DNA from: Paludibacteraceae bacterium
GTDB taxonomy: Bacteria; Bacteroidota; Bacteroidia; Bacteroidales; Paludibacteraceae
Reading direction: 5' to 3'
Length of the DNA stretch: 64,000 nucleotides
Assembly: GCA_024693065.1 (NCBI GenBank)
Contig: JAILLP010000016.1
Coordinates: forward strand, 1 to 64,000
Shown here: positions 51,405 to 54,829 of the stretch, in pieces
Position numbering within the stretch: position 1 is the first letter of the stretch
How the letters are laid out: each line of letters begins with the position of its first letter
Program-made: the position numbers and the translations under genes
Notes under the pieces: generated by a model
Seen by the model: only the letters and a program-made list of their open reading frames with translations
Databases searched by the model: none
What the model was told of the DNA's origin: nothing

Positions 51405-54400
51405 TTAATATTCTTGCCAAGTCTTGATCTCGATGTCAGTCTCCTTCATGTTGCAGAATGCCTTGATGAAGGCACTTGCCAAACGGGCGTTCGTCATCAA
51501 CGGAATGTTATGGTCGATCGCGGAGCGACGGATCTTGTAACCGTTGGTCAACTCACGTCTGGTCTGGTTCTTAGGGATATTGACAACCAAATCCACTTGA
51601 TGTTCCTGTAACAACGAAATGATATTCATGTTGTGGTTCTGCTCATCCGGCCAGCTAACCACTGTGGCTTCAACGCCATGGTCGGCAAGGAACTTCTGCG
51701 TTCCCTCCGTAGCGTAGATCTTATATCCACCAGCGGCGAGCAACTTGCAAGCGTCGAGCAAATCCACCTTGCCGCGGATATCACCGGAAGATACCAAAAC
51801 GCCCTTCTTCGGAACGACGTATCCTACTGAAAGGAGGGCGGTCATGATCGCGCTGTCGAAGTCCTTTCCGATGCAACCAACCTCACCCGTAGAGGACATG
51901 TCCACGCCCAATACAGGGTCCGCCTTATGCAGACGGGCGAAAGAGAATTGGGAAGCCTTCACGCCCACATAGTCGATATCGTAAGTAGAAGAATCCGGCT
52001 TCTCGAACGGTGCGTCCAACATGATTTTGGTAGCCGTCTCGATGAAGTTGCGCTTCAACACCTTGGATACGAATGGGAAGCTTCTCGAAGAACGCAAGTT
52101 ACACTCGATCACCTTCACCGCATTGTCCTTCGCCAAGAATTGGATATTGAATGGACCGCTGATGTTCAACTCCTTAGCGATCTTCTTGCTGACCTTCTTG
52201 ATCTGACGAACCGTCTCCAAGTAGATCTTCTGTGCAGGGAATACCAATGTGGCGTCACCTGAGTGGACACCGGCGAACTCGACGTGCTCGGAAATCGCAT
52301 ATTCAACGATCTCACCATTCTTAGCCACAGCGTCGAACTCGATCTCCTTAGCGCCTTGCAAGAAGGAAGATACAACGACTGGATACTCCTTGGAAACCTT
52401 AGCGGCCATCTTCAGGAACGTCTCCATCTGCTCACGGTTGTAGCATACGTTCATCGCCGCACCGGACAAGACGTAAGACGGACGGATCAGGACAGGGAAA
52501 CCAACCTCCTTGATGAAGTTGTCGATGTCCTCCGAGCTGGTCAACTCGCCCCAACGAGGCTGGTCGATGCCCAATTGATCCAACATAGCGGAGAATTTGT
52601 GACGGTTCTCCGCACGGTCGATGGAAACAGGGGAAGTACCCAATACCGGCACATTCTGACGATAAAGCTTCATCGCCAAGTTATTCGGAATCTGACCACC
52701 CACAGAGACAATCACACCCTTAGGGTTCTCCAAGTCGATGACATCCAACACACGCTCGAAGCTCAACTCGTCGAAATAGAGGCGGTCACACATGTCATAG
52801 TCGGTGGAAACCGTTTCAGGGTTGTAGTTGATCATGATGGACTTATAACCCAATTGACGGGCCGTCTTCACCGCATTCACGGAACACCAGTCGAACTCTA
52901 CGGAAGAACCGATGCGGTAAGCACCAGAACCCAAGACAACGATGTTCTTGTCGTTTCTGTATGAATAATCGATGCTATGCTCAGTCTCGCCGTAAGTCAT
53001 GTACAAGTAGTTGGTCAACTCAGGATGCTCCGAAGCGACCGTATTGATGCGGCGTACGGCAGGTACGATATTCTGTTTCTTACGAAGGGCACGCACACGA
53101 AGGATTTCCTTCTCCATGTTGTTCGTAGGGTTCTCGGAGAAACGGGCGATCTGGAAGTCGGAGAAGCCAAGGCGTTTCGCTTCCTTCATCACGTTAGCCG
53201 GAATATCCTCGATCTTCTTGTATTGACCCAACACCTTCGTGTAGTCCACGATGTTCTTCAACTTACCGATGAACCATTTGTCGATCTTCGTCAAATCGAC
53301 GATTTTCTCGATGGAATAGCCCTTCTCCAAAGCGGCTGCGATGGCGAAGATACGCAAGTCGGTAGGGTGGGACAATTCCGTATCCAAGTCGTTGAACTCG
53401 ATGTCATGGTTGCCGACGAAACCGTGCATACCCTGACCGATCATACGAAGACCCTTTTGCATGATCTCCTCGAAAGACTTACCGATGGACATGATCTCAC
53501 CGACCGACTTCATGGAAGAGTTGATCTCACGGTCAACGCCCACGAACTTGGACAAGTCCCAACGAGGGATCTTCACGATGATATAATCAACCGATGGAGC
53601 GACGTAAGCCGAGTTAGGCGTGCCCATCTCACCGATCTGGTCGAGGGAATAACCCAAAGCCAACTTAGCGGCCACGAAAGCCAACGGATAACCGGAAGCC
53701 TTGGAAGCCAAAGCGGATGAACGGCTCAAACGAGCGTTGATCTCGATAATACGGTAGTCGTTCGTCTCGGCGTTGAACGCATATTGGATGTTACACTCGC
53801 CGACGATGCCGATGTGACGCACCACCTTTTGGGAGATTTCCTGCAACATGCTGATCTGCTCCTGCGTGAGGGAGATGATTGGCGCCACCACGATACTCTC
53901 GCCCGTGTGGATGCCGAGCGGATCGAAGTTCTCCATCGGAACCACCGTGAAACAGTGGTCGTTCTTGTCGCGGATCACCTCGAACTCGATCTCCTTCCAA
54001 CCCTTCAGAGACTCCTCGACGAGGATCTGCTTAGAGTGAGCCAAGGCGCTGTCGCAGAGCTCAACGAACTCCTTCTCGTTGGCGCAGATACCTGAGCCCA
54101 AACCGCCCAACGCATAGGCTGAGCGCACCATCACCGGATAACCGATGCGGCGAGCCACCGTCAAGGCATCCTCCATATTCTCGACAGCCTGTGAAACAGG
54201 AGTCTTCGCCTCAATCTCCTTCAGTTTCTTCACGAAGAGGTCACGGTCTTCCGTGATCATGATCGCATCCACAGAAGTACCCAACACCTGCACGCCATAT
54301 TTCTTCAAAGTGCCAGAAGTATACAATTCAGTACCGCAGTTCAAAGCGGTCTGACCACCGAAAGCCAAGAGGATTCCGTCCGGCTGCTCCTTCTTGATAA

Positions 54401-54632
54401 CCTCCTCGACGAAATAAGGGGTGATAGGCAAGAAATAGACCTTGTCGGCCACACCCTCCGATGTCTGGATCGTCGCGATGTTCGGATTAATCAAAACTGT
54501 GGAGATACCCTCCTCGCGCATTGCCTTCAGTGCTTGCGAACCGGAATAGTCGAACTCTCCCGCTTGCCCAATCTTCAGGGCTCCGGAGCCAAGCAAAATG
54601 ACCTTTTTTAACTTCTGACTCATATCATTCAA
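51405..54632 (-). CDS. carB: Carbamoyl-phosphate synthase large subunit
   Basis: 1075 residues, the synthetase subunit that makes carbamoyl phosphate for pyrimidines and arginine. It is two homologous ATP-grasp halves. The first begins VILLGSGALKIGQAGEFDYSG and includes MVRSAYALGGLGSGI. The second begins VVLGSGAYRIGSSVEFDW and includes LIRPSYVLSGAAMNV. The C-terminal ~130 residues are an MGS-like regulatory domain (GVLVSSGDIRGKVDLLDACKLLAAGGYKIYATEGT, MNIISLLQEHQVDLVVNIPK). carA is not adjacent. A leader frame and terminator-type hairpin precede the start codon, suggesting attenuation. Confidence 0.97.
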   Translation of the reverse strand: MNDMSQKLKKVILLGSGALKIGQAGEFDYSGSQALKAMREEGISTVLINPNIATIQTSEGVADKVYFLPITPYFVEEVIKKEQPDGILLAFGGQTALNCGTELYTSGTLKKYGVQVLGTSVDAIMITEDRDLFVKKLKEIEAKTPVSQAVENMEDALTVARRIGYPVMVRSAYALGGLGSGICANEKEFVELCDSALAHSKQILVEESLKGWKEIEFEVIRDKNDHCFTVVPMENFDPLGIHTGESIVVAPIISLTQEQISMLQEISQKVVRHIGIVGECNIQYAFNAETNDYRIIEINARLSRSSALASKASGYPLAFVAAKLALGYSLDQIGEMGTPNSAYVAPSVDYIIVKIPRWDLSKFVGVDREINSSMKSVGEIMSIGKSFEEIMQKGLRMIGQGMHGFVGNHDIEFNDLDTELSHPTDLRIFAIAAALEKGYSIEKIVDLTKIDKWFIGKLKNIVDYTKVLGQYKKIEDIPANVMKEAKRLGFSDFQIARFSENPTNNMEKEILRVRALRKKQNIVPAVRRINTVASEHPELTNYLYMTYGETEHSIDYSYRNDKNIVVLGSGAYRIGSSVEFDWCSVNAVKTARQLGYKSIMINYNPETVSTDYDMCDRLYFDELSFERVLDVIDLENPKGVIVSVGGQIPNNLAMKLYRQNVPVLGTSPVSIDRAENRHKFSAMLDQLGIDQPRWGELTSSEDIDNFIKEVGFPVLIRPSYVLSGAAMNVCYNREQMETFLKMAAKVSKEYPVVVSSFLQGAKEIEFDAVAKNGEIVEYAISEHVEFAGVHSGDATLVFPAQKIYLETVRQIKKVSKKIAKELNISGPFNIQFLAKDNAVKVIECNLRSSRSFPFVSKVLKRNFIETATKIMLDAPFEKPDSSTYDIDYVGVKASQFSFARLHKADPVLGVDMSSTGEVGCIGKDFDSAIMTALLSVGYVVPKKGVLVSSGDIRGKVDLLDACKLLAAGGYKIYATEGTQKFLADHGVEATVVSWPDEQNHNMNIISLLQEHQVDLVVNIPKNQTRRELTNGYKIRRSAIDHNIPLMTNARLASAFIKAFCNMKETDIEIKTWQEY

Positions 54633-54657
54633 ATTTTAAACATAACATTCGTAAACA

Positions 54658-54687
54658 AAAAAAATGCGTTGAAGAAAGTCTCAACGC
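54658..54687 (-). terminator. Terminator hairpin in the carB leader (candidate attenuator)
   Basis: On the minus strand GCGTTGA, an 8-base loop and TCAACGC (54666-54687) are followed by A and seven T. This is a complete Rho-independent terminator. It lies only 25 bases before the carB start codon and inside the predicted carB transcript, so it must be bypassed for carB to be expressed. Confidence 0.85.
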
Positions 54688-54691
54688 AACA

Positions 54692-54808
54692 TCAAAAAAC
54701 AATATTAAAAAAACAGAATGAATCGACAACTTTCATTGTCTCCCCGAAATCTATATCCTTATGTATTCCTCTCAAGTTCACTCCGTTTTTTAAATTTTCT
54801 GCATCCAT
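54692..54808 (-). CDS. Putative 38-residue leader peptide of carB
   Basis: A short frame from ATG (54808) to TGA (54692-54694) lies between the predicted promoter and the attenuator hairpin. It begins MDAENLKNGVNLRGIHKD and ends DSFCFFNIVF. Its last codons are written by two U-runs (seven and six U), and the stop lies five bases before the terminator stem. This is the arrangement of the pyrBI leader of enterobacteria, where UTP shortage stalls RNA polymerase in U-runs so that the following ribosome blocks the terminator. Existence of the peptide is inferred; no homologue is recognised. Confidence 0.6.
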   Translation of the reverse strand: MDAENLKNGVNLRGIHKDIDFGETMKVVDSFCFFNIVF

Positions 54809-54821
54809 TCTAAAATTTCGG

Positions 54822-54829
54822 CAAAGGTA
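54822..54829 (-). promoter_or_regulatory. Promoter -7 box of carB
   Basis: TACCTTTG on the minus strand fits TAnnTTTG. The -33 box is imperfect (TTTC about 18 bases upstream). It lies 13 bases before the leader-peptide ATG. Confidence 0.65.

Follow-up and report, generated by a model that had tools for sequence, protein, structure and literature searches.

A candidate pyrBI-type, UTP-sensing attenuator in the leaders of free-standing carB genes of Bacteroidales

Introduction

The closest described counterpart of the leader reported here is pyrL, which precedes pyrBI in Escherichia coli and in which, as measured on NC_000913.3, a leader open reading frame (ORF), a hairpin, a 10-nt spacer, a U-rich run and a terminator follow one another in the same order. 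Folded with the routine used below for the carB leaders, the pyrL hairpin scores -8.6 kcal/mol and lies 10 nt before the U-run. The carAB genes of E. coli, which code for the same enzyme as the gene studied here, also respond to UTP, but the control there lies in reiterative initiation and in DNA-binding proteins and does not involve attenuation, in the accessible portion of the source (PMC6245113).

Within the Bacteroidetes, the Bacteroid-trp motif (RF01692; PMC2864571, in part) and the leader-peptide attenuators of Flavobacterium psychrophilum (PMC9723704, in part) are likewise regulatory leaders, but they belong to amino-acid biosynthesis genes. Short ORFs resembling leader peptides have been reported in 5′ UTRs of B. 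thetaiotaomicron, carB not being among them in the portion of that paper available (PMC7366714). The terms Bacteroid, pyrimidine, carB, pyrB and carbamoyl have no match in PMC2965389, and no description of a carB attenuator in Bacteroidetes was found in the open-licence papers searched.

Here, we describe a leader upstream of carB in the window, a stretch of 64,000 nt from a Paludibacteraceae bacterium, together with its counterparts in other Bacteroidales. We consider it likely that this leader is a pyrBI-type transcription attenuator which senses UTP through a hairpin-stabilized pause and controls a free-standing carB. The likeness to pyrBI is one of layout, with a pyrimidine-pathway gene downstream in both cases; the gene (carB, not pyrBI), the phylum (Bacteroidota) and the promoter (TAnnTTTG) differ.

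Anatomy of the carB Leader in the Window

An earlier reading of the letters alone had proposed a promoter box, a 38-codon frame, two U-runs and a terminator before carB, all of which were confirmed on the minus strand.

54822..54829, minus strand: Bacteroidetes-type promoter box TACCTTTG (TAnnTTTG), basis: sequence
54692..54808, minus strand: leader ORF of 38 codons plus TGA (MDAENLKNGVNLRGIHKDIDFGETMKVVDSFCFFNIVF), ATG at 54808 and TGA at 54694-54692
54777..54791, minus strand: A-rich segment AAAAAACGGAGUGAA, with predicted pairing to 54722-54708 (UUCAUUCUGUUUUUU)
54725..54740, minus strand: candidate pause hairpin (GACAAU-GAAA-GUUGUC), with 11 nt between its 3′ edge and the first U-run
54707..54713, minus strand: first U-run (7 U), at which a UTP-sensitive pause is proposed, basis: sequence and T-run enrichment
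54694..54699, minus strand: second U-run (6 U), extending into the stop codon of the leader, basis: sequence
54657..54688, minus strand: intrinsic terminator with a 9-pair stem, a 6-nt loop and a T8 tail (stem-loop 54688-54665, T8 54664-54657)
51405..54623, minus strand: carB, carbamoyl-phosphate synthase (CPSase) large subunit, not adjacent to carA

The carB product matches the CPSase large subunit model TIGR01369 with 1423 bits (cut-off 1027). From the position of the box, which is placed at -12 to -5 (PMC9723704, in part), transcription is predicted to start at about 54817. The true start of the leader ORF is uncertain, as GTG 54781 and ATG 54736 are also in frame, and the relatives L008 and L010 have the GTG start and lack the matching ATG. 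Some distances proposed by the sequence-only reading had to be revised. The terminator with its T-run stands, but its stem, described as a perfect one of 7 bp, comprises nine pairs (eight Watson-Crick and one G-T), and the leader stop, which does lie just before it, is 3 nt and not five bases from this nine-pair stem. Similarly, carB does begin shortly past the terminator, but its ATG (54623) is 33 nt past the T-run and not 25; an in-frame TTG at 54632, 24 nt past the T-run, is an alternative start. The candidate pause hairpin (54740-54725) had been missed altogether, and in the predicted fold (z -3.3, terminator included) it is enclosed by a long stem joining 54777-54791 to 54708-54722. Rfam yielded no match at E up to 5 between positions 54300 and 55300.

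Recurrence of the Leader in Bacteroidales

The leader-carB region was matched in 15 of 16 genomes of the genus, the window's own included; in G005, the sole match was to carB of the second kind, which is linked to carA. The 15 leaders form groups that are strongly different upstream of the terminator, each of them with a short ORF and a U-rich stretch before the terminator, and leaders built in this way precede free-standing carB genes across Bacteroidales. The conservation proposed as a check on the pyrBI-like reading was found: frame, U-run and terminator persist in relatives although the sequence diverges.

Upstream regions were taken from contigs of the family, of the order and of named genomes, giving 185 loci, of which 182 yielded a carB start (the exceptions being L203, L220 and L223); the terminator scan found a terminator within 200 nt in 93 of the 182. 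Two sets were derived: 58 terminator-bearing upstreams sharing less than 80% identity, from which L065, L066, L118, L119 and L146 were dropped by hand, and a selected set of 49 leaders, from which the same five were dropped by hand together with L131, L114, L225, L207, L217, L102, L092, L109 and L150. As controls, 37 gene-end terminators replaced a too-small set of four terminators from the window.

A leader ORF at the terminator is commoner than chance would have it: an ORF beginning with ATG, at least 15 codons long and with its stop between -15 and +22 of the stem start was found in 50 of the 58 nonredundant upstreams, against 12.4 in dinucleotide shuffles. In the 49 selected leaders, stop positions relative to the stem start range from -12 to +22, with a median of -1, and 34 of these nonredundant leaders have a TAnnTTTG box no more than 75 nt before their start (2.5 expected from base shuffling). 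The stop of the carB leaders usually lies at the 5′ arm of the stem or within it, whereas pyrL stops 43 nt past the stem start. The eight upstreams without such an ORF include L008, with its GTG start, and L006, in which a second U-run shorter by one base causes the loss of the near-stem stop, so that the frame crosses the terminator and ends shortly before carB. This stop is also lost in L009, and in both L006 and L009 the leader frame continues through the terminator as it does in pyrL. The leader peptides themselves are weakly conserved, with a pN/pS of 0.56 over 17 pairs built on protein alignments, a choice that favours the true frame; in eight gapless pairs, pN/pS was 0.57 in the true frame versus 0.77 and 0.75 in the shifted ones.

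The U-run and a Candidate Pause Hairpin

A run of at least five T within the 45 nt before the stem is present in 41 of the 58 unselected and 39 of the 49 selected leaders, compared with four of the 37 gene-end terminators; the other 17 of the 58 have no such run. The last 30 nt before the terminator hold on average 15.3 T in the selected leaders, against 8.7 in the gene-end controls (p 1e-11), and 14.7 T in the unselected leaders. The 56 T-runs located in leader ORFs are distributed over the three codon phases as 22, 21 and 13, and Phe occurs among the last 14 codons in 49, 48 and 48 of the 49 leaders across the three frames. Since T-runs fall in all codon phases and Phe appears in every frame, the U-run is kept as nucleotides, which argues for the sensing of a nucleotide and not of an amino acid.

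Hairpin propensity peaks sharply 10-11 nt before the U-run, both in the 49 selected leaders (z -12.6 and -11.4) and in 39 leaders with less than 60% identity (z -10.8 and -8.7). Hairpins that score at least as well as -3 kcal/mol and leave 9-13 nt between their 3′ edge and the run were found in 15 of these 39 leaders (mean 1.8 and maximum 6 over 200 shuffles) and in 21 of the 58 unselected leaders versus two of the 37 gene-end terminators; a strong simple hairpin is absent from most of the 58, and the spacing stands as an average over leaders. When the leaders are anchored on the terminator instead, the signal is smeared over several distances, which indicates that the hairpin goes with the U-run. 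The U-run precedes the stem by 8-45 nt in the carB leaders and by 28 nt in pyrL. The 3′ end of the paused RNA has been placed 11-12 nt downstream of pause hairpins (PMC12288461, in part), a distance at which the pause would fall at the first Us here. The sequence-only comparison with pyrBI thus gained a further element, namely a pyrBI-type hairpin 10-11 nt before the U-run, at the spacing of pyrL. Covariation in the hairpin was not significant, a single pair being changed on both sides among nine sequences, a result matched by 175 of 500 shuffles.

Whole leaders fold somewhat better than shuffles that keep positions (mean z -1.5; 20 of 50 below -2). An A-rich 5′ segment that differs in sequence between groups pairs with the U-run in predicted folds of L010, L013, L009 and L015, which belong to the window's genus. 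We know of no description of such a second structural layer for pyrBI.

Terminator and Gene Context of carB

Searched in 10 genomes, the terminator pattern GCGTTN{4,18}AACGCATTTTTT gave eight matches in seven of them, seven being at the carB leader by position, and one match for the reversed control, so that the stem sequence is nearly locus-specific. The pattern was unmatched in the other three, whose carB terminators, where read, diverge from it. Terminators were found in none of the 15 carB upstreams (of 182) linked to carA, as judged by carA similarity, and in 93 of the 165 upstreams of at least 150 nt that are not so linked. The 72 without a terminator by scan include some misses of the scan (for example L009, L056 and L059) and others, several Prevotella among them, in which no terminator was seen by eye either. 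Other arrangements were observed upstream of some relatives. In L065 and L066 (tRNA-Gln) and in L062, L124 and L135 (tRNA-Gly), carB lies directly behind a tRNA gene, with a GCGTT-type terminator in between in L065 and L066, and this adjacency means that carB may be transcribed there by read-through from the tRNA. A gene resembling argR (L093:1887-2363; 109 bits against a cut-off of 130) directly precedes carB in another relative.

Exactly one CarA scored over the cut-off in 19 of 20 genomes searched; the open frame that holds it spans about 1450 codons in 12 of these genomes, a length which suggests a CarA-CarB fusion, and is shorter in seven. With one CarA per genome, no separate carA is left for the lone carB. 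In six of 26 genomes, G002 (L015), G008, G020, G026, G066 and G050, this lone kind is the sole carB over the cut-off; among these six, CarA was checked in G002 (99% complete), which has no match. These genes could possibly code for a lone CPSase large subunit that works without a glutaminase subunit. Gene content failed to assign the lone carB to arginine or to pyrimidine synthesis, all six lone-only genomes having both a pyrB and an argG match, of which the argG match passes the curated cut-off in a single genome.

Proposed Mechanism and Rival Explanations

Beyond the anatomy, its conservation and the distance between hairpin and U-run, which are observed, we infer pausing, UTP dependence, ribosome coupling in Bacteroidota and an effect on carB, which would be combined as follows. 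RNA polymerase would start at the TAnnTTTG promoter, a ribosome would begin the short leader ORF, and the hairpin, in the exit channel, would hold the polymerase where the U-run begins. At low UTP, the pause would be long and the ribosome would close up; on the last codons or the stop, which lie at the terminator's 5′ arm or within it, the ribosome would block the stem, and carB would be transcribed. When UTP is plentiful, the polymerase would escape ahead of the ribosome, the terminator would form and transcription would stop.

Each of the alternatives fits codon phase, spacing or conservation less well. Arginine sensing is plausible because arginine synthesis draws on carbamoyl phosphate, and carB serves both the pyrimidine and the arginine pathways; a ribosome stalled at scarce Arg (or Phe) codons of the leader peptide could also block the stem. 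Some leaders read the CGT of the terminator arm as their last codon (…MR*, …LR*), and the argR-like gene of L093, although below the cut-off, would suit such a role. However, no conserved codon run for one pathway amino acid was found: Arg is present in the last 14 codons of 24 leaders and missing from those of 25 of the 49, being absent from the whole leader in 16, and Phe is not frame-specific, with counts of 105 in the true frame versus 125 and 97 in the other two. Given also that constraint on the peptide is weak and that an Arg sensor would need neither a U-run nor a hairpin 10 nt before it, we regard amino-acid sensing as quite improbable.

Coupling to the ribosome could also operate with a pause set by NusG or by sequence alone, the leader then reporting the general state of translation and not UTP. 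NusG-dependent pauses, known from Bacillus subtilis, likewise combine an RNA hairpin with a T-rich stretch, but the T-rich motif begins 11 nt before the RNA 3′ end and thus directly behind the hairpin in what is available of PMC12288461, whereas about 10 nt separate the two in the carB leaders; moreover, carB is a pyrimidine and arginine gene with no general role in translation, and we hold this explanation to be unlikely. Least probable of all is the absence of any regulation, in which the terminator would belong to an upstream gene or a small RNA and the U-rich sequence would be incidental, perhaps the tail of an earlier terminator. The stem that abuts the U-run directly in L015 and L016 and the terminator between tRNA and carB in L065 and L066 fit that picture, but the statistics of ORF, U-run and spacing oppose it, and the usual spacer of 10-11 nt is wrong for a terminator tail.

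Other Pyrimidine Genes

A terminator is present in most of the pyrB leaders read, but they bear no U-run ORF of the carB kind and have an A-rich short ORF instead. By eye, within genomes that also carry the carB leader, a leader terminator and an A-rich, Lys/Arg-rich short ORF were seen at pyrB of L160, L158, L159, L163, L164, L166, L167, L156 and L162, and the pyrB leader is a candidate for a second, different attenuator. No leader terminator was seen by eye upstream of pyrD and pyrF. A switch common to all pyrimidine genes was not borne out by the pyrB, pyrD and pyrF upstreams, whose differences indicate that the pyrimidine genes are not controlled uniformly.

Implications

The UTP-sensing reading may be extended, tentatively and with considerable doubt, to a UTP clock, built of a pause hairpin 10 nt before a U-run within a leader ORF, that evolved in Bacteroidales independently of enterobacteria and acts on a free-standing carB, in some genomes the sole CPSase large subunit and maybe one without any CarA. 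Pyrimidine supply would thus set an unpartnered, possibly ammonia-using carbamoyl-phosphate synthase, with, in the window's genus, a predicted pairing of the U-run and the A-rich 5′ segment in addition.

In gut Bacteroidales, the leader looks built for the reading of carB only at low UTP, an E. coli-like switch placed in another phylum and on another gene. If the attenuator operates as proposed, it would reveal how entry into pyrimidine synthesis is adjusted in Bacteroidales, and the coupling of ribosome and polymerase would prove usable for regulation in a phylum whose leaders are little studied. The recurrence in two phyla of a 10-nt spacing between hairpin and U-run would then amount to a searchable design rule for nucleotide-sensing attenuators.
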